From Nioella nitratireducens (lineage in GTDB: Bacteria; Pseudomonadota; Alphaproteobacteria; Rhodobacterales; Rhodobacteraceae), in the NCBI RefSeq assembly GCF_001879715.1, contig NZ_MNBW01000013.1, positions 1 through 64,000 of the forward strand: a stretch of 64,000 nucleotides of DNA, in the 5' to 3' direction. Within the stretch, counting starts at the first letter, position 1. Each line of letters starts with the position of its first letter. The position numbers and the translations under genes were made by a program. Shown here one piece after another: positions 825-17,346 of this stretch. The notes beneath the pieces were generated by a model. The model was given only the letters and a program-made list of their open reading frames with translations. It was not told the DNA's origin and made no database searches.

Positions 825-977
825 TCTCTAGGCGCAGTGTTTAGTCAGATGGCCGGGGGCCTGCAAGAGGAAAATTGCCCCCGAGCGGGCGCACCCTGTG
901 GATTTCGGTATGAGGCGCGCAGGGGCGATCCTGCCGCGCTCGGACAAGGGCAGCCTGTTCGGGCGTTAGGCGACACG

Positions 978-1712
978 CTAGGCCGACGGGCTGGCCAATC
1001 GTCGCCGTCGGGCCGCGCGCCACAGGTTTAACCCCTCCACTGCGCCCGCGAAGACCATCGCCGCGTAGATGAAACCACGTTCAACATGGACGTGAAAACC
1101 GTCGGCGACCAGGGCCATGCCGACCATGACGAGGAAGGCCAGCGCCAGCATCTTGGTCGAAGGGTGCGCTTCGACGAAATGGGCGATCGGAGCGGCGGCG
1201 ACCATCATGACAAGGATCGCAAGAACCACGGCGGCGATCATCACCTCCAAGTGGTCGGCGATGCCCACGGCGGTGATCACCGAGTCGAGCGAAAAGACGA
1301 GGTCCAGCACCATGATCTGGAAGATCACCGACAGGAAAGCCGCCTGAACGACCGTGGCCTCGGCGCTCTCGACGCCGCCCTCGACCTCTTCGAAAATCTC
1401 GGTGGAGGCTTTGTAGATCAGGAAGAGCCCGCCCGCGATCAACAGAATATCGCGCCAGCTGACATCGAAGCCGCGGATTTGAAGGATCGGCGCGGACAGG
1501 CCGATGATCCACGAAATCGACAAAAGCAACGCGATGCGCAATACGAGCGCCCCGGTCAGACCAAGCACGCGTGCCCGGCGCCGCTGTGCCTCGGGCAATC
1601 TGGCCGCCGCGATCGAGATGAAGATCACGTTGTCCACGCCCAGAACGATTTCGAGCACGGTCAGGGTCAGGAACGAGGCCCAGACAGCAGGGTCGGTCAG
1701 AAGGTCCATCAT
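978..1712 (-). CDS. TerC family integral membrane protein
   Basis: A 244-residue polytopic inner-membrane protein of the TerC/Alx family. The first helix carries the family signature with conserved acidic residues (EIVLGVDNVIFI, about residues 21-32). A later helix has FSLDSVITAVG. The two halves give about seven membrane segments. Some TerC proteins take part in tellurite resistance and others export manganese or calcium; the substrate cannot be told here. Start: ATG at 1712, preceded by AAGGAGATGC; a second ATG follows directly. The gene stands alone, with the AEC transporter upstream on the same strand after about 60 bases. Length is normal for the short, CBS-less subfamily. Confidence 0.88.
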   Translation of the reverse strand: MMDLLTDPAVWASFLTLTVLEIVLGVDNVIFISIAAARLPEAQRRRARVLGLTGALVLRIALLLSISWIIGLSAPILQIRGFDVSWRDILLIAGGLFLIYKASTEIFEEVEGGVESAEATVVQAAFLSVIFQIMVLDLVFSLDSVITAVGIADHLEVMIAAVVLAILVMMVAAAPIAHFVEAHPSTKMLALAFLVMVGMALVADGFHVHVERGFIYAAMVFAGAVEGLNLWRAARRRRLASPSA

Positions 1713-1774
1713 TTGGGTGCATCTCCTTTAGGCTCTCGCGGCAGATAGGCATCGGGGGCGGTCCTGCAAGGGGC

Positions 1775-2710
1775 TCAGAGCCCCAGCCATGACAGCAGCA
1801 GGGTGATCGTCACAAAGGAGGTTGCCGTCGTCACCAGCAGCACGGCCGATGTCAGCAACTCGCGCCCGTAGCGCATTCCGAAGATCGGGTAGATCGACAG
1901 CATCGGGCAAGCGGCGTTGATGGTCGCCGCAAGGCGCAGTTCCGGCGGAACACCGGGCACAAGGGCCAGCGCGGCCAGCATGAACAGGGGGTGCAGCACC
2001 AGCTTGCCGATCAGGATGCCGGTGGCGGGCGCCACCATCTCGCGCACATTGGTGGCCATGGCAACGGTGCCGCCCACGGCGAAAAGGGCGACTGGCGACG
2101 CGATGGGGCGCAGCATTTCGATCGGGCGCAGGATCGGCTCGGGCAGGGTGATACCACTCGCGGAATAGGCCAGGGCCGCGACAAGGGACAGGATGATCGG
2201 GTTCCTCGGCAGGTTGGCAAGACCTTGCAGAAAACCCTGCATCGGCGTCTCGGCGCTGCTCTCGCCAGCATCGGAGATCGCTAGGGCGACCGGGATCAGG
2301 ACCGTCAGTTCCACCAGCATGGCCGTGGCCAGAACGGTGACCGCGCGGTCGGGCAAGAGGATCGACATCAGCGGGAACCCGACGAAGGCCGAATTAGAGA
2401 CGGTCAAGCCCATTGCCGTCAACCCGAGCGCCCCGAACCGCATCTTGAAGACCAGCCGCCCGACCACGAGGCAGGCCACGAAGAGAGCCACGGACCCACC
2501 CAGATAGGCCAGGAAGAACGGACCCTGAAGCACCTCGGACGGGCTGGCGCTGCCGACCGCGACGAAGATCAGCGCCGGAAGGGCGAACTTGACCACGAAA
2601 CTGCCAATGGCCCGCACATCCGGGCCAGCGAAATACCCCGAGCGGACCGCGAAAAAGCCGAGCGCGATCAACAGGTAGATCGGCAAGGTAATGGACAGGA
2701 TCGGGGGCAT
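1775..2710 (-). CDS. AEC family transporter (auxin efflux carrier type)
   Basis: A 311-residue membrane protein with about ten hydrophobic helices in two repeats, matching the AEC/MleP permease fold. The N-terminus (ILSITLPIYLLIALGFFAVRSGYF) and the glycine/proline-bearing NPIILSLVAALA region are typical. Family members move malate, malonate or other organic acids, driven by membrane potential; the substrate is not deducible. An inverted repeat lies directly before the start codon (separate entry). No partner gene indicates a pathway. Confidence 0.85.
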   Translation of the reverse strand: MPPILSITLPIYLLIALGFFAVRSGYFAGPDVRAIGSFVVKFALPALIFVAVGSASPSEVLQGPFFLAYLGGSVALFVACLVVGRLVFKMRFGALGLTAMGLTVSNSAFVGFPLMSILLPDRAVTVLATAMLVELTVLIPVALAISDAGESSAETPMQGFLQGLANLPRNPIILSLVAALAYSASGITLPEPILRPIEMLRPIASPVALFAVGGTVAMATNVREMVAPATGILIGKLVLHPLFMLAALALVPGVPPELRLAATINAACPMLSIYPIFGMRYGRELLTSAVLLVTTATSFVTITLLLSWLGL

Positions 2711-2719
2711 GGCGGCTCT

Positions 2720-2739
2720 GACAGGTCAATGAACCTGTC
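2720..2739. promoter_or_regulatory. Inverted repeat before the AEC transporter gene
   Basis: GACAGGT-N6-ACCTGTC, perfect 7-base arms, ends 9 bases upstream of the start codon at 2710. It could be an operator or a small hairpin in the leader. No regulator is identified. Confidence 0.35.
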
Positions 2740-2785
2740 CAGTCTGGCAGATCGGACAGGCGCCGGCCAGTGCTGGCGACCGGCC

Positions 2786-3166
2786 TCAGGCCAGCCCGTA
2801 GCCGATATTGGCGATGGCCAGCACCAGAAGCGAGAGCATTGTCAGGATCATGCCCGCGGCGCGCGCGCGGAATATCTGCGGGGTCGATCCCATACCGATT
2901 GCGTGCAGAATGCGCCCGCCCAACAGCACGATCCCCATCGCGTGCAGCAACCAGCCAGGGGCGCCCTGAAGGTCGGCCAAGGTCAGCAGGATCAGGGCAA
3001 ACGGCACGTATTCGGTGAAATTTGCCTGCACCCGGATGGCACGGGACATCTGGTCGTCATTGCCGTCGCCATGGGACAGTTTGCGCGCTTTGCGGTGACG
3101 GATGACCTTGGCGCTGAGGCCAAGAAACAGAAGGGCCAGAAGCCCGGCATAGACGGCGGAAATCAT
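2786..3166 (-). CDS. MAPEG family membrane protein
   Basis: A 126-residue protein with four hydrophobic segments and the MAPEG hallmark in the first loop and second helix: RVQANFTEYVPFALILL (about residues 45-61), close to the ExxxN-E-P motif of bacterial YecN/MAPEG proteins. The helix around GGRILHAIGM is also typical. Eukaryotic relatives are glutathione S-transferases and eicosanoid enzymes; bacterial members are mostly uncharacterised inner-membrane proteins. The start at 3166 was chosen over longer open reading because it begins at the conserved first helix and has GGAG 7 bases upstream. The longer upstream frame is antisense to the neighbouring gene region. Confidence 0.88.
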   Translation of the reverse strand: MISAVYAGLLALLFLGLSAKVIRHRKARKLSHGDGNDDQMSRAIRVQANFTEYVPFALILLTLADLQGAPGWLLHAMGIVLLGGRILHAIGMGSTPQIFRARAAGMILTMLSLLVLAIANIGYGLA

Positions 3167-12291: not shown

Positions 12292-12744
12292 ATGACGAAG
12301 ATTGATGAAAAAGATAAGCAAATATTGCGCATTTTGGTTCGTGATGGGCGGATCAGCAATCTCGATCTTGCGGCCACGGTCGCCCTTTCGCCCTCGGCCT
12401 GTCTGCGTCGGGTGCAGGCGCTGGAAGCGGCGGGGGTCATCTCTGGCTACCGGGCGGTGACAGATCCGGTCAAACTGGGGATAGGCTTTACAGCTTACCT
12501 GACCGTTGGCCTCAACGAGCATTCCAAGGCCGCGCAAGAGGCGTTCGAGGCGGCCATCGCCCGCGCCCCGGAAGTGCGCGAGTGCCACAACATCACCGGC
12601 AATGTGGAATACCTGCTGCGCGTCGAGGCCGCCGATCTGGTGGCCTACAAGCGGTTCCATACCGATGTGCTGGGGGACATCCCACAGGTGGCGACGATCA
12701 CGACGCATGTGGTCATGGCTTCGCCCAAGGACGAGCGCGCCTGA
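12292..12744 (+). CDS. Lrp/AsnC family transcriptional regulator
   Basis: 150 residues: N-terminal winged helix-turn-helix (MTKIDEKDKQILRILVRDGRISNLDLAATVALSPSACLRRVQALE, split here around residue 20) and C-terminal RAM/ligand-binding domain (VRECHNITGNVEYLLRVEAADL..., with the conserved G-D/E-YLL pattern). Such proteins form octamers that bind amino acids. The conserved LSPSACLRRVQALE recognition helix is intact. It is divergent from the LysE exporter and convergent with the sRNA array that ends at 12761. The Shine-Dalgarno site is weak (CAAGAA). Confidence 0.92.
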   Translation: MTKIDEKDKQILRILVRDGRISNLDLAATVALSPSACLRRVQALEAAGVISGYRAVTDPVKLGIGFTAYLTVGLNEHSKAAQEAFEAAIARAPEVRECHNITGNVEYLLRVEAADLVAYKRFHTDVLGDIPQVATITTHVVMASPKDERA

Positions 12745-12760
12745 AACTTTCCAGAACCTG

Positions 12761-12805
12761 AAAATGAAAAAGCGGTGGCTCCAAGGGAGGAGGAGGAGCC
12801 ACCGC
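12761..12805 (-). terminator. Terminator of the ccaF1-sRNA transcript (last array hairpin plus T-tract)
   Basis: The final array hairpin, stem GCGGTGGCT/AGCCACCGC (12772-12805), is followed on the minus strand by TTTTTCATTTT. The same hairpin carries a CCTCCTCC loop, so it serves both as an sRNA stem-loop and as the rho-independent terminator. Confidence 0.85.
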
Positions 12806-12842
12806 CAGATCTCAGCGTCCCAAATTGGGAGGAGGAGGACGC
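12772..12842 (-). ncRNA. CcsR/Cuckoo-type sRNA unit 5 (most distal)
   Basis: Two stem-loops on the minus strand: a weak one, GCGTCC/GGACGC (12815-12842), and a strong one (12772-12805), both with a CCTCCTCC(C) loop complementary to Shine-Dalgarno sequences. It ends at the operon terminator. Before it, an extra hairpin at 12858-12888 (stem GCCGGGGC) has only a reduced TTTCCTCCC loop. Confidence 0.75.
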
Positions 12843-12906
12843 CGATGGATGGGACATGCCGGGGCGGGAATGGGAGGAAAGCCCCGGCAAGCCCTTCGTT
12901 GGTGAT

Positions 12907-12980
12907 GCGGCGGCGCCAAGGGAGGAGGAGGCGCCGCCGCGTCCACACGGATCTCCAAGGGAGGAGGAGAGAGACCCGCG
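12907..12980 (-). ncRNA. CcsR/Cuckoo-type sRNA unit 4
   Basis: The 5' stem-loop, CGCGGGTCTC/GAGATCCGTG with G-U pairs (12946-12980), and the 3' GC-rich stem-loop GCGGCGGCGCC/GGCGCCGCCGC (12907-12940) both display TCCTCCTCCC in the loop. Confidence 0.78.
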
Positions 12981-13012
12981 ATCACGCTGCCCCGTCTGGG
13001 GGCGAATTTCGT

Positions 13013-13081
13013 GGCGGCAGCCCCAAGGGAGGAGGAGGGGCTGCCGCCGAAACACGGACCAAGGGAGGAGGAGAGGCCCGT
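13013..13081 (-). ncRNA. CcsR/Cuckoo-type sRNA unit 3
   Basis: 5' weak stem ACGGGCC/GGTCCGT (13054-13081) and 3' strong stem GGCGGCAGCCCC/GGGGCTGCCGCC (13013-13048), each with a CCTCCTCCC loop, joined by a short GTTTC linker. Confidence 0.8.
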
Positions 13082-13115
13082 ATGTCTGGCCCGATCAGCG
13101 GGCCGGTATGGTTTT

Positions 13116-13182
13116 GCGGCAGCCCCAAGGGAGGAGGAGAGGCTGCCGCTTAAACACGAGCCCAAGGGAGGAGGAGGGTCGT
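13116..13182 (-). ncRNA. CcsR/Cuckoo-type sRNA unit 2
   Basis: 5' weak stem ACGACCC/GGGCTCGT with one bulged C (13156-13182) and 3' strong stem GCGGCAGCC/GGCTGCCGC (13116-13149), both with CCTCCTCCC loops, joined by GTTTAA. The 3' stem is nearly identical to that of unit 3, pointing to duplication. Confidence 0.8.
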
Positions 13183-13210
13183 ATCTCTGCCCCGGAGGGC
13201 GGTGTATTTG

Positions 13211-13282
13211 GCGGCGACGCCAAGGGAGGAGGAAGGGCGTCGCCGCAGATCTGCCGGAATATGGGAGGAGGAACCGGCAGAT
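13211..13282 (-). ncRNA. CcsR/Cuckoo-type sRNA unit 1 (next to ccaF1)
   Basis: 5' stem ATCTGCCGG/CCGGCAGAT (13249-13282) and 3' stem GCGGCGACGCC/GGCGTCGCCGC (13211-13246), each with TCCTCCTCCC or a near copy in the loop. It begins 15 bases after the DUF1127 stop codon, so it is almost certainly cut from the same transcript. Confidence 0.8.
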
Positions 13283-13296
13283 ATTCCGTTGGTCCG

Positions 13297-13518
13297 TTAG
13301 GCCGCTTTTCCGTAGGCCGCTTCCAGCGCGATCCCGCGGATTTCGCAACGGCCGATGCCGAGGTCTGCGAGGTCGCGGTTGCTGAGCTGGGCCAGCTCGT
13401 TCAGCGTGCGCCGATAAACGCGGCGGGCCTCCATGGCCTCTTGGAACTGTGCGCGGATTTCGGCAAAGCGGGCGCCGAGCGAGATGGAAGCGGCGCGGGT
13501 GTCGGTTGCAAAGGCCAT
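13297..13518 (-). CDS. DUF1127 protein, CcaF1-like (host gene of the sRNA array)
   Basis: 73 residues. The C-terminal half has the DUF1127 pattern: YRRTLNELAQLSNRDLADLG followed by IGRCEIRGIALEAAYG. In Rhodobacter sphaeroides a DUF1127 protein, CcaF1, is co-transcribed with four CcsR sRNAs under stress sigma factors and has been described as an RNA-binding protein that influences sRNA maturation; homology and synteny make this the equivalent gene. The protein is basic and helical. Start at 13518 with AGGA 8 bases upstream. The array follows 15 bases after the stop and no terminator intervenes. I could not assign the promoter firmly: a TTGTGC-N16-TATTTT match at 13639-13612 is one option, and an RpoH-type promoter is expected from the homologue. 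Confidence 0.9.
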   Translation of the reverse strand: MAFATDTRAASISLGARFAEIRAQFQEAMEARRVYRRTLNELAQLSNRDLADLGIGRCEIRGIALEAAYGKAA

Positions 13519-13826
13519 GGCCTATATCCTTTCGTCGGTCGGGGTGGCGGCTCGGTCGCGCTATTTGTCGGCGTCGGCCAGCGTCAGCCCCGTGTTTGTT
13601 TCGATGGGTAAAAAATATCGCAATGCTGCGCGTGCACAATCCCCCAGAGGCTCAATGCTGCTATGCAGAAAGTGCATGACAGTCCTCAAAACGGTCAAAA
13701 TTTTGGCTGCCCCAGCGTCACTTAGCCCGGATTGTGAAAGTCCCGTGGCGGTTTTCGGATGCGCAGCGGTCTTGCGCGGCCTATGTCTGATGGACCGACC
13801 AGCCACAGGGACGAGAAAGGACCGCC

Positions 13827-14909
13827 ATGCCCCAAACTCGCGACTCAATCCTCGACGCGCTCAAGCGACTTTCCCTGCCCGATGGCGGCACACTGGTCGA
13901 GCGCGACATGGTGCGCGCCCTGCGGGTTGACGGTGCGCAGGTCTCTTTCGTGATCGAGGCGGGCTCGGAGGAAGAGGGGCGCCGCCTTGGCCCGGTGCGT
14001 CAGGCGGCCGAGGCGCTGGTCAAGGCCTTGCCGGGGGTCGATACGGTGACCGTGGCCCTGACGGCCCCCACCAAAGAGCGCCCGCAGCCAGCGCAGGGCG
14101 AGCCACCAAGCCTAAAGATCGGCGGGCATCCCAAGCCGCAGGCGGGCTCCATGAAACCTGCATCCGTGGCCCGCATCCTGACCGTCGGGTCTGGCAAGGG
14201 CGGGGTCGGTAAATCGACAGTCTCGTCGAACCTTGCTGTCGCGCTTGCGCGGGCGGGGCGCAAGGTCGGCCTGCTGGATGCAGATATTTACGGGCCCTCT
14301 CAGCCCCGCATGATGGGGGTGACCCAACGCCCGGCCTCGCCCGATGGCAAAACGATCCTGCCGCTGCACAACCACGGCGTGACGCTGATGTCGCTCGGGC
14401 TGATGTTGCCAGAGGATCAGGCGGTGGTCTGGCGCGGGCCGATGCTGATGGGGGCATTGCAGCAAATGCTGACCCAGGTCGCATGGGGTGAACTTGATGT
14501 CCTGATTGTCGATCTGCCGCCGGGCACCGGCGATGTGGCAATGACACTGTGCCAAAAAGCCGAGGTGACCGGGGCGATCGTCGTTTCGACGCCACAGGAT
14601 GTGGCGCTGCTCGACGCCAAGAAGGCGATCAACATGTTCCAGTCGCTCAAGACGCCCATTCTGGGCCTGATCGAGAACATGTCTGTCTATCACTGCCCCA
14701 ACTGTGGCCATGAAGAGCATATCTTCGGGCATGGCGGCGTGCGGGACGAGGCAGAGCGTCTCGGCATTCCATTTCTCGGGGCGCTGCCGATATCGCTCGA
14801 CACCCGGTTGGCCGGCGATGGCGGCACGCCGATTGCGGCGGGCGAGGGCGCCATGGCCGAAGCCTATGCTACGCTGGCCGCGCAATTGGTCGAGGGTGGA
14901 ATGGCCTGA
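13827..14909 (+). CDS. mrp: Mrp/ApbC (NBP35-type) Fe-S cluster carrier ATPase
   Basis: 360 residues. N-terminal MIP18/FeS-assembly domain (about residues 1-85), a Pro/Lys-rich linker, then a deviant Walker A P-loop, GSGKGGVGKSTVSSNLAVAL (about residues 127-146), DADIYGPSQPRM, and the conserved cysteine pair YHCPNCGHEEHIFG (about 290-303) that binds a bridging 4Fe-4S cluster in the dimer. It loads Fe-S clusters on target apoproteins in the cytoplasm. AAAGGA lies 5 bases before ATG 13827. It is followed by a clean terminator, so it is transcribed apart from the dcw cluster, and is divergent from ccaF1 with about 300 bases between. Confidence 0.95.
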   Translation: MPQTRDSILDALKRLSLPDGGTLVERDMVRALRVDGAQVSFVIEAGSEEEGRRLGPVRQAAEALVKALPGVDTVTVALTAPTKERPQPAQGEPPSLKIGGHPKPQAGSMKPASVARILTVGSGKGGVGKSTVSSNLAVALARAGRKVGLLDADIYGPSQPRMMGVTQRPASPDGKTILPLHNHGVTLMSLGLMLPEDQAVVWRGPMLMGALQQMLTQVAWGELDVLIVDLPPGTGDVAMTLCQKAEVTGAIVVSTPQDVALLDAKKAINMFQSLKTPILGLIENMSVYHCPNCGHEEHIFGHGGVRDEAERLGIPFLGALPISLDTRLAGDGGTPIAAGEGAMAEAYATLAAQLVEGGMA

Positions 14910-14955
14910 GGCCGCCCGCCCCATCGCAGCCCGGTTCCCGTTTCATGGGAATTTC

Positions 14956-14984
14956 CCCCCGAAGTTCGGCCTTCGGGGGTTTTT
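14956..14984 (+). terminator. Rho-independent terminator after mrp
   Basis: Perfect stem CCCCCGAAG/CTTCGGGGG (14956-14979) with loop TTCGGC, then TTTTT. It insulates mrp from the mraZ leader. Confidence 0.9.
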
Positions 14985-15109
14985 CGTGGGAAAGTTGGAA
15001 AAAAATCCCACCCCCTGTGGCTTCATCGCAACGACTACATCTTGTGTTTCTGCTGGGCGGTCACCGCCCCATCTGCCCGATTTGTCCGTCTGACGCCCTC
15101 TAAATGCAG

Positions 15110-15455
15110 TATGTGAAAGGGGGTTTAGGCAAGATGTGGGGGAATTTCCCATAAAAAGGGATTGATTGGGAAAACATTCCGTGAGACAACAATTACACAG
15201 CAAACGAGATGCACCGGGATCAAGGCGCAAGACCAAGGACCGGAACGACAAAACGGCAGTTTCATACAGGCTATCTCATTCGCTGACATAAGAGATCCGG
15301 CGCGCGGGCAGTGCAGACATCCCCCCCCCAGGTAGCGCGCGCAGTCGGACATCCCAGAGATGGGACGAGGGCGGCGGATTGGGCAGTGGCAGCTTGCCCG
15401 ATCCGCCGTTGTCCTTTCCGGGGCAGGCAGACCGAACAGAAAAGGGCCGGGGACA
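15110..15455 (+). promoter_or_regulatory. Long mraZ leader with candidate MraZ boxes and a strong hairpin; likely UpsM-like sRNA
   Basis: The coding-free stretch upstream of mraZ. GGG-type boxes begin at 15137 (TGGG), 15157 (AGGG) and 15167 (TGGG), spaced 20 and 10 bases, i.e. on one helix face, as in MraZ binding sites. Downstream, 15373-15407 folds into a 13-bp stem (GGCGGATTGGGCA with TGCCCGATCCGCC, one G-U) followed by GTTGTCCTTTCC, a weak terminator-like tail about 45 bases before the mraZ start. In Rhodobacter sphaeroides the dcw cluster is preceded by an extended leader that yields the abundant sRNA UpsM by partial termination and RNase E processing; the layout here fits that. The promoter position is not resolved. 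Confidence 0.5.
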
Positions 15456-15971
15456 GTGGAGCGCAGGTTTCAGGGCGAAAGCCTGAACAAGGTGGATGGA
15501 AAGGGTCGGGTTTCGATTCCGGTCAAGTTCCGCCGTGTGCTTCAGAATTCCGACAAGGATTGCACCCCCGGAAACGCGCCGCGCCTCTATATCGCCTATG
15601 GCGACCCCAAGAAAAATTACCTCGAATGTCTCTCGGGCAATGCCTATGATGAGATCGACGAGATGATCCAGGGCGAGCGCCGCGGAACGCCGCTGCGCAA
15701 GGCGCTGGAATACCTCTATTATTCGAAATGCGACGAGACAACAGTGGATGATACCGGTCGTCTGGTGTTGCCGCCTGCCGCGCGCGACAAGATCGGGCTG
15801 GATGGCGAGGCGCTGTTTCAGGGCAAGGGCGACCAGTTCCACATCCTGCATCCCGATCAGGCCCGCGAAGCGGAGGACGACATCGAGAAACTTCTCGCCT
15901 CGCTCGGCGATGACGACGAATTCTTCGATCCCCTCAGTCTTGTCGGCAAACCAACACCGGGAGAGGCCTGA
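15456..15971 (+). CDS. mraZ: Division/cell wall cluster transcriptional regulator MraZ
   Basis: 171 residues from a GTG start (15456), preceded by a GGGG-containing site. Two SpoVT/AbrB-like repeats: [26 protein letters not shown] at the N-terminus and [25 protein letters not shown] (about residues 93-117), each with the DxxGR-(V/L)-x-(I/L)P core. MraZ forms rings that bind the repeated boxes upstream of itself and tunes the dcw operon. The acidic C-terminal tail ([14 protein letters not shown]) is longer than in E. coli, as usual in this order. TGATG overlaps rsmH by one base, suggesting coupling. Confidence 0.95.
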
Positions 15972-16981
15972 TGGCCGGCCCGGCATCCGACACCCCGGCG
16001 GCCGAGCCTCATATCCCTGTCCTGCTGGAGGCGATCCTGAAGGCGGTCGCACCGGTGCAGGGGGTCTGGCTAGACGGCACGTTCGGCGCGGGTGGGTATT
16101 CCCGCGGCCTTCTGGCCGCAGGGGCCGCGCGGGTGATCGGCATCGACCGCGATCCGCTTGCCTTTGAAATGGCCACCCCTTGGGCGGGCGCGTTTGGCGA
16201 CCGGCTGATCCTCGTCGAAGGCACGTTCTCGGACCTGGACCGTCACGCGGCGGAGGCGGGCTATCCGCAGCTTGATGGCGTGGTGCTGGACCTTGGTGTT
16301 TCCTCCATGCAACTCGATCTTTCCGAGCGCGGGTTTTCCTTCATGCGTGACGGGCCGCTCGACATGCGCATGGGGCGGGTGGGGCCGTCTGCCGAAGACC
16401 TTGTGAACGATGCCCCCGAGGGTGCCTTGGCCGATATACTCTTTCACTACGGCGAGGAACGCGCGTCCCGACGGATCGCCAAGGCCATCGTCAAGGCCCG
16501 GACGGAAGAGCGCATCTCCTCCACCCTGCACCTGGCCAAGATCGTTGAAAAATGCCTGCCGCGCCCGAAACCGGGCCAAAGCCACCCGGCGACCCGCAGC
16601 TTTCAGGCCATCCGCATCGCGGTGAACGATGAATTCGGGCAACTGGTCGAGGGGTTGATGGCCGCAGAACGCGCGCTGGCTCCCGGCGGGCAACTGGCCG
16701 TTGTGACCTTTCATTCACTGGAAGACCGCATCGCCAAGCGCTTCTTGCAGGACCGTGCCAGTTTCGGCGGTGGTGGGTCGCGCTACGCCCCGGCCGAGGC
16801 CGAGCGGGAACCGGGGTTCATCCTGACACCGCGCCGTGCCATCGCGCCCGATGCCGATGAAATCAAACGCAACCCGCGCGCGCGGTCGGCCAAGCTGCGG
16901 GTCGCCCGCCGCACCGATACGCCTGCCGCTGCCCCCCTGGCCGACGTGCTCGGCCTGCCACGCCTGTCGGAGATCCTGTAG
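15971..16981 (+). CDS. rsmH: 16S rRNA (cytosine(1402)-N4)-methyltransferase RsmH
   Basis: 336 residues. SAM-dependent methyltransferase that modifies N4 of C1402 in the ribosomal P site. Motifs: [10 protein letters not shown] at the N-terminus, the SAM loop [15 protein letters not shown] (about residues 34-48), [20 protein letters not shown], and the C-terminal [15 protein letters not shown] and [14 protein letters not shown]. Formerly mraW; the second gene of most dcw clusters. It starts by overlapping the mraZ stop and ends 2 bases before ftsL. Confidence 0.97.
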
Positions 16982-16983
16982 CC

Positions 16984-17346
16984 ATGCGCGGTTTCGTGAC
17001 CATCCTCGCCGCCATTGCCGTGATTGCCCTTGGATACTGGGCCTATCACCAGAACATCCAGACCCAGCAAGCGCTCAGAGAGGTCGAGCGCTTGCAACGG
17101 GCGATCGGCGTTGAACGCGAGCGGCTCGTGGTTCTGCGCGCTGAATGGGCCTATCTCAATCGCCCCGACCGGCTGCGCGAACTGGTGGATCTGAATTTCG
17201 ACCGGCTGAACCTGCTGCCGCTGCGCCCCGAACAATTCGCGGTGATGGACGAGGTCATCTGGCGTGAGGATATGCCCGCCGCCGCCGAAACCGAAGGCGA
17301 GGAAGACATCCTTTACAGCGCGTCCCAAGCGGAGGAGCGGCCATGA
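16984..17346 (+). CDS. ftsL: Cell division protein FtsL
   Basis: 120 residues, single-pass inner-membrane protein. A very short cytoplasmic N-terminus, one helix (FVTILAAIAVIALGYWAYH), then a periplasmic leucine-zipper-like coiled coil (QQALREVERLQRAIGVERERLVVLRAEWAYLNRPDRLRELV, given here in outline). FtsL joins FtsQ and FtsB and activates FtsWI at the septum. Sequence conservation is low in the family; the assignment rests on topology, the LNRPDRL segment and position between rsmH and ftsI. It overlaps ftsI by 4 bases (ATGA). Confidence 0.92.
   Translation: MRGFVTILAAIAVIALGYWAYHQNIQTQQALREVERLQRAIGVERERLVVLRAEWAYLNRPDRLRELVDLNFDRLNLLPLRPEQFAVMDEVIWREDMPAAAETEGEEDILYSASQAEERP

Follow-up and report, generated by a model that had tools for sequence, protein, structure and literature searches.

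A CcsR-type small RNA operon of Nioella nitratireducens and the putative PhaR sites in its promoter region

Behind a small DUF1127 gene of Nioella nitratireducens lies an array of hairpins with anti-Shine-Dalgarno (anti-SD) loops, which raises the question of what kind of operon this is and which signals govern it. The trigger of such operons has been published as stress sigma factors, and the RNAs are reported to act on pyruvate dehydrogenase and C1 metabolism, for a reason that is not obvious. We consider it likely that the window (the whole stretch of 64,000 nucleotides that was analyzed) holds a stress operon of the CIN1/CcsR type whose promoter is also under PhaR, the PHB-responsive repressor. 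For this reading the boxes found upstream matter more than the array itself: a PhaR operator shared throughout the family would link the system to the storage of carbon.

A DUF1127 gene followed by hairpins had been assigned to the minus strand by an earlier, sequence-only reading, and the protein match and the position of the hairpins confirm it. The hairpins begin 14 nt beyond the stop codon on the same strand. In five congeners that were compared, the top DUF1127 match is 58-65% identical to the protein of the window. The same reading had counted eleven hairpins, ten of them with a common loop, in five units of a weaker and a stronger hairpin, and folding bears this out: ten hairpins carry the CCUCCUCCC loop between 12771 and 13282 and the eleventh has a UUUCCUCCC loop. 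The transcribed features are as follows, with z values from comparison with dinucleotide shuffles:

13297-13518, minus strand: DUF1127 gene, ccaF1-like, 73 codons for 73 aa (PF06568, 50.3 bits, E 1.9e-13)
13249-13282, minus strand: unit 1, weak hairpin, CCUCCUCCC loop (z -5.6)
13211-13246, minus strand: unit 1, strong hairpin, CCUCCUCCC loop (z -6.3)
13189-13200, minus strand: motif-free spacer hairpin (z -2.5)
13152-13186, minus strand: unit 2, weak hairpin (z -2.7)
13116-13149, minus strand: unit 2, strong hairpin (z -4.5)
13087-13104, minus strand: motif-free spacer hairpin (z -3.1; pairs otherwise in the whole-array fold)
13049-13086, minus strand: unit 3, weak hairpin (z -3.6)
13013-13048, minus strand: unit 3, strong hairpin (z -5.5)
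12989-13003, minus strand: motif-free spacer hairpin (z -2.5)
12946-12980, minus strand: unit 4, weak hairpin (z -3.1; outer stem pairs otherwise in the whole-array fold)
12905-12942, minus strand: unit 4, strong hairpin (z -6.0)
12848-12897, minus strand: eleventh hairpin, shortened UUUCCUCCC loop (z -4.4 for 12851-12894)
12812-12845, minus strand: unit 5, weak hairpin (z -3.8)
12771-12806, minus strand: unit 5, strong hairpin, then a T run; probable intrinsic terminator (z -5.3)

The loop word is strongly concentrated here. Indeed, CCTCCTCC occurs 17 times in the window, against a mean of 2.47 (sd 1.68, maximum 8) across 100 dinucleotide shuffles, and 15 of these 17 occurrences (overlaps counted) fall inside 12786-13271, every one on the minus strand. 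The full motif lies in a hairpin loop in 10 of 10 cases, with folding z from -2.7 to -6.3. A terminator scan, which admits loops of 3-8 only, returned none on the minus strand. Plus-strand open reading frames over the array (12775-13611 and others) were rejected as genes by eye, being the translated purine-rich complement of the motifs.

The eleventh hairpin looks like a partly decayed anti-SD hairpin, since two congeners (loci L035 and L036) hold a hairpin with the full tttCCTCCTCCCt loop at the same place; these counterparts also rule out a foreign element. It occupies one of the four inter-unit spacers of the window, the three others each holding a small motif-free GC hairpin. Spacers were also counted in the 66 arrays with at least four motifs, the window included (where neighboring hairpins merge and leave one spacer). 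Among motif-free spacers of at least 25 nt, 79 of 82 reach an MFE of -5 kcal/mol or lower, compared to 58.7 expected from shuffles, with a mean z of -1.85 across the 66 arrays; for all spacers the figures are 111 of 114 and 89.0. A role of the motif-free hairpins as RNase E punctuation or as a 3' block would be a guess.

That stems vary under fixed loops, as the sequence-only reading had stated, was upheld in 17 distinct strong stems from six members of the genus, the window included: pairing-preserving double changes were seen at 8 of 12 stem positions and the loops keep the motif. The stems had been chosen by best pairing (one, unit 2 of L035, was trimmed by hand), so that the 191 of 191 paired cells are circular and the double changes are the informative part; the spread of changes over both stem arms is not circular and points to selection on structure. 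Fixed CCUCCUCCC loops on changing stems have already been described for related RNAs (PMC3927594, PMC10746234). At locus L001 (genome G051), several neighboring units score identically and look near-identical in sequence, compared to the diverged units of the window, which suggests a recent amplification or homogenisation there.

To which family does the array belong? A covariance-model search, which had been advised as a check, supports the CcsR/cuckoo identity claimed at the outset: five of five units match the Rfam model CcsR1 (RF02791) at full length, with 45.2, 37.0, 35.6, 28.3 and 25.9 bits and E values between 1.2e-9 and 6.3e-4 for a search over 1001 bases. All five stay below the gathering score of 65.3, and we therefore file the array under the broad CIN1/cuckoo type and not under Rfam CcsR1. 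This cut-off is narrow, as it is passed in 8 of the 149 genomes of the bacterial family that were searched and 126 of them match at E <= 0.01. At E <= 0.001, matches were obtained in 10 of 190 genomes spread over the class, three in the same family. One of 14 control genomes, Thermus composti, also matched, so weak CcsR1 matches can be due to chance. The best match to ar14 (RF02344), at 44.1 bits, is below the gathering cut-off of 58.8; 6C, ar7 and the other weak Rfam matches were discarded, as all are below cut-off and those on the same strand overlap the array.

Loci that combine DUF1127 with CcsR-like RNAs have been named CIN1 (PMC10253847), and the window has the two traits by which they are recognized: a short DUF1127 gene immediately upstream, in the same orientation, and CCUCCUCCC-loop hairpins with variable stems. 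The operon is thus of the CIN1/CcsR ('cuckoo') type, and the array adds one genome to a described family. Its founding papers are said to be Billenkamp 2015, Reinkensmeier 2015 and Grutzner 2021. The closest known system is ccaF1-CcsR1-4 of Rhodobacter sphaeroides, for which reports describe an RpoHI/II promoter, processing by RNase E with a contribution of CcaF1, and an influence on pyruvate dehydrogenase, FlhR and the glutathione pool (PMC10253847, PMC8307010, PMC8625941, PMC7866481). In both loci a DUF1127 gene precedes a tandem series of two-hairpin sRNAs with CCUCCUCCC loops on one strand, and the window has a putative counterpart of the RpoH promoter. They differ in that the window has five units and a single hairpin where R. 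sphaeroides has four units, and in that the window scores below the Rfam cut-off of RF02791. A second group with identical CCUCCUCCC loops and variable stems is that of the rhizobial alpha-r14/NfeR1 sRNAs (RF02344), which are grouped with the cuckoo RNAs. These are three-hairpin RNAs with their own RpoD-type promoter (PMC10746234), whereas the window has two-hairpin units behind DUF1127.

The sequence-only reading had left the upstream region aside, and two conserved boxes at fixed spacing are found there:

13653-13672, minus strand: box 1, CTTTCTGCATAGCAGCATTG, with core CTGCATAGCAG at 13658-13668, which fits the R. sphaeroides PhaR site CTGCNNNGCAG
13621-13640, minus strand: box 2, ATTGTGCACGCGCAGCATTG, with PhaR-like arms and 4 instead of 3 bases between TGC and GCA
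13614-13639, minus strand: putative RpoHI/II-type promoter, TTG at 13639-13637 (inside box 2) and TAT at 13617-13615

PMC12542648 reports CTGCNNNGCAG as the sequence that PhaR binds in R. sphaeroides. TTG near -35 and TAT near -12 make up the pattern of RpoHI/II promoters (Fig. 1 legend of PMC10673084); both words are present at the putative promoter, 22 bases apart from start to start, and box 2 spans the RpoH-like -35 element and the spacer after it. A sigma-70 scan found no promoter. Alignment of six members of the genus gave two conserved upstream blocks, the first reading CTGCATRGCAG in five of the six and CTGCATGGCGG in L036.

The boxes were followed beyond the genus through a scan of named genomes with the DUF1127 protein of the window, which yielded 75 loci. 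A chain of motifs lies downstream on the same strand with at least one motif in 70 of them and at least two in 69, while the controls over the 75 loci gave 1 motif on the other strand of the downstream 1.5 kb and 3 in the upstream 1.5 kb. Within 350 nt upstream, an exact CTGCN3GCAG stands in 52 of the 69 array loci, at a density of 2.1 per kb; elsewhere in these loci the density is 0.013 per kb, and each of five control palindromes was counted 0 to 3 times. Fifty of these 52 boxes are located at -102 to -174. The two others, at about -327 (L132 and L133), are probably due to chance; in these loci and in L103 the tblastn match begins at residue 33, which shifts the upstream windows. Among the six loci with fewer than two motifs, four have both boxes (box 1 with a mismatch in L095), and the loci of Variovorax and Afipia, outside the family, have neither.

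The spacing between the boxes is equally regular. Of the 75 upstream regions, 55 contain an exact box 1, among them those of Gemmobacter aestuarii (L073), Yoonia tamlensis (L100) and Roseicyclus mahoneyensis (L087). In these 55, the center of box 2 (ATTGTGCANNNGCAGCAT) lies 30.5-31.5 bp beyond that of box 1 in 48 regions and 22.5-23.5 bp beyond it in 7, distances close to three and two turns of the helix. The mean frequency of the top base is 0.96 in box 1, 0.89 in box 2 and 0.55 between them in 30 regions of one spacing, and 0.96, 0.91 and 0.72, respectively, in 18 regions of the other.

The match of box 1 to PhaR sites was then scored with a matrix built independently of these loci. Table 3 of PMC12542648 lists 20 Sinorhizobium meliloti sites under promoters graded Efficient, and 16 of them went into the matrix, with the four from exoH left out. 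The 75 upstream regions (69 from the named loci and six of the genus) have a median best score of 16.0, compared to -1.9 for 1208 background blocks. The 95% level of the background is exceeded by 71 of 75 regions and the 99% level by 64, with a P value that overstates independence because the regions share descent. Among loci L001-L030, 18 of 24 DUF1127 genes are above the 95% level (6.5) and 20 have box 2; one of the 18, L002, is counted at 6.9 with its best place away from the box position. Low scores are found for L001 (5.5), L004 (3.3) and L030 (3.6) and, at L021, for three genes out of four, and the low-scoring L001, L004 and L002 are among the loci with the best CcsR1 matches. G051, which has the best CcsR1 score and stands in for the R. 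sphaeroides comparison, accordingly has a degenerate box 1 below the 95% level, in contrast to the good PhaR-type box 1 of the window.

The genome of N. nitratireducens (G000) encodes phaR at G000:C2:146944-147126 (PF07879 and TIGR01848). One copy of the CTGCNNNGCAG box precedes phaR, and two precede a gene that lies between phaC and phaR. This gene is phasin-like by position and composition; it matches no Pfam or NCBIfam model, and a search with Phasin_2 (PF09361) returned nothing in this genome. One of its two sites, TTTTCTGCACCGCAGCATTC, departs from box 1 of the window mainly in the middle triplet. The extended word CTGCN3-4GCAGCATTG is found twice in the 4.01-Mb genome, before the window operon and before a MaoC-type hydratase gene, where CTGCATTGCAGCATTG at G000:C12:244678-244693 (L179, L234) begins 46 bp ahead of the presumed ATG; this gene is a candidate for a further PhaR target. 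A second DUF1127 gene, at G000:C84:114647-114960 (L243), has the same promoter of CTGCNNNGCAG box and box 2 and is followed by no anti-SD array. Matrix scores are 24.8 and 20.9 for the phasin-like gene, 21.7 for MaoC, 19.9 for phaR, 18.0 for the second DUF1127 gene and 16.3 for the window operon. A PhaR operator would account for the two-box promoter before both genes that match the DUF1127 protein of the window at E <= 1e-6 in this genome.

The bare word is less telling. CTGCAWDGCAG occurs at 18 distinct places, five of them before genes (phaR, trkA, MaoC and the two DUF1127 genes), and is unspecific since the other 13 lie inside frames of a mechanical ORF scan; CTGCNNNGCAG occurs 114 times in the genome, compared to 68 for the pattern read backwards. 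The site before the TrkA potassium-transport gene (L228, site 1501) stands 58 bp ahead of the gene start.

The most serious alternative, which we judge unlikely yet worth weighing, is that RpoH alone controls this CIN1/CcsR operon and that the boxes are parts of the promoter or sites of another regulator, with no involvement of PhaR. Box 2 lends itself to this view: with 4 bases between its half-sites it is a non-canonical PhaR site, and its loose core TGCN4GCA is present in 67 of the 69 array loci, more than the exact box 1. The R. sphaeroides literature, in the portions consulted, names RpoHI and RpoHII and not PhaR, and L120, L070 and G051 depart from the PhaR pattern. Against it, box 1 fits both the published PhaR consensus and the independent matrix, and the CTGCNNNGCAG box recurs before phaR, the phasin-like gene and the MaoC hydratase gene of this very genome. 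The presence of phaR gives no discrimination, as the gene is found in 55 of 55 array genomes examined (and in 144 of 149 genomes of the family). An argument from clean co-loss of PhaR and box was set aside in view of G098, in which a perfect box was found and phaR was not (the genome is 84% complete), and of L120, which kept phaR and has neither box; L070 also has phaR in its genome and no evident box. The complete genome G003, devoid of phaR, has eroded boxes, a single case that fits the PhaR reading.

Known PhaR targets bear on the same point. In S. meliloti, PhaR binds the promoter of mmgR and represses this sRNA gene; its dyad lies between the -35 and -10 elements and the arms of the site match box 2. 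The mmgR RNA belongs to a different family (alpha-r8), and the parts of the mmgR literature consulted mention neither DUF1127 nor an anti-SD array. Similarly, two PhaR boxes flank the -35 element of phaP1 and phaP2 in S. meliloti, and the phasin-like gene here also has two. The window operon differs from the phaP promoters by the 4 bases between the half-sites of box 2 and by its product, sRNAs instead of a granule protein. No text linking PhaR with CcsR1 or RpoHI was found in the literature searched, a prior mention being possible in subscription papers outside its scope, such as the 2022 R. sphaeroides phaR study cited in PMC10888616; a link between PhaR and DUF1127 was likewise absent from that search, in which both terms co-occur in a Rhodovulum taxonomy paper. 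The link of PhaR to this operon is thus unreported within the literature searched, and at the level of sequence it is well supported.

Under combined control by PhaR and RpoH, a single transcript would start near 13610 at the RpoH-like promoter, carry the DUF1127 RNA-binding protein, the five two-hairpin anti-SD units and the decayed hairpin, and end at the last strong hairpin. RNase E, with participation of the DUF1127 protein, would cleave it into short two-hairpin sRNAs, whose exposed CCUCCUCCC loops may pair with purine-rich ribosome-binding sites, thereby blocking translation or altering stability. PhaR would occupy box 1, and probably also box 2 over the -35 element, and repress the operon without PHB; once PHB is synthesized, the granules would attract PhaR and the operon would be released. 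RNase E processing, RNA binding by CcaF1, RpoH control and the targets are taken from work on relatives, whereas the anatomy, the conservation, the boxes and their match to PhaR sites are established here; that PhaR binds, in which direction it acts and what the operon does in N. nitratireducens, we infer. Two reports complicate the part of the protein. The role of CcaF1 in processing may not be simply helpful, since raised CcaF1 interferes with CcsR maturation (PMC8307010). Furthermore, RNA binding may not be the sole role of DUF1127 proteins, since those of Agrobacterium are tied to protein-protein contacts with PhoR, a phenotype complemented by R. sphaeroides CcaF1 (PMC12501420).

With somewhat less assurance, we favor extending this reading to most sampled Rhodobacteraceae: the operon would be a direct PhaR target with two helically phased operators, one in the RpoH promoter, and would fire the anti-SD RNAs, together with the RNA-binding protein that assists them, when PHB is made or when stress and PHB coincide. 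If so, the reported effect of CcsR on pyruvate dehydrogenase would close a loop from stored carbon to the acetyl-CoA supply, and the operon would be a branch of PhaR control that works through sRNAs, in parallel with rhizobial MmgR but unrelated to it.

The number of units varies widely among relatives. Motif copies range from 2 to 12 among the 69 array loci, the maximum being found in L076, a Roseicyclus sp., so that five units are not exceptional. The comparison of copy number suggested by the sequence-only reading shows four pairs and a single hairpin in L035 and L036; L032 to L034 have five pairs, in which a few hairpins carry a variant of the motif. Such variation, together with the shared loop core, looks as if dose outweighed sequence, as expected for a bulk decoy whose loops bind ribosome-binding sites generally, or mimic the 16S rRNA end, and damp translation globally under stress; we regard this as improbable. 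In the genome the word GGAGGAG-N4-11-ATG was counted 83 times, including 4 matches antisense to the array, compared to 11 for the pattern read backwards, which reflects ordinary Shine-Dalgarno enrichment only and therefore gives no list of targets. That the hairpins are a cis element of the DUF1127 mRNA (a 3' stabiliser or attenuator) and not trans-acting RNAs would agree with the short distance between the DUF1127 stop codon and the first motif core, at most 61 nt in 62 of the 70 loci with a motif, but is very improbable, as discrete CcsR RNAs processed from the same position are established in R. sphaeroides and a stabiliser would not need conserved unpaired anti-SD loops.

At one locus, L021 (G007, about 919-3008 after reverse complement), four DUF1127 genes alternate with anti-SD hairpin units, which looks like joint duplication of a gene with its sRNA unit. 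In the window, the last strong hairpin ends 26 bp before a convergent Lrp/AsnC-type gene (12292-12744). On the other side (13827-17346), an Mrp/ApbC-type ATPase gene (PF10609) is divergent from the operon and is followed at some distance by mraZ and by what are, judged by eye, other cell-division and cell-wall genes.
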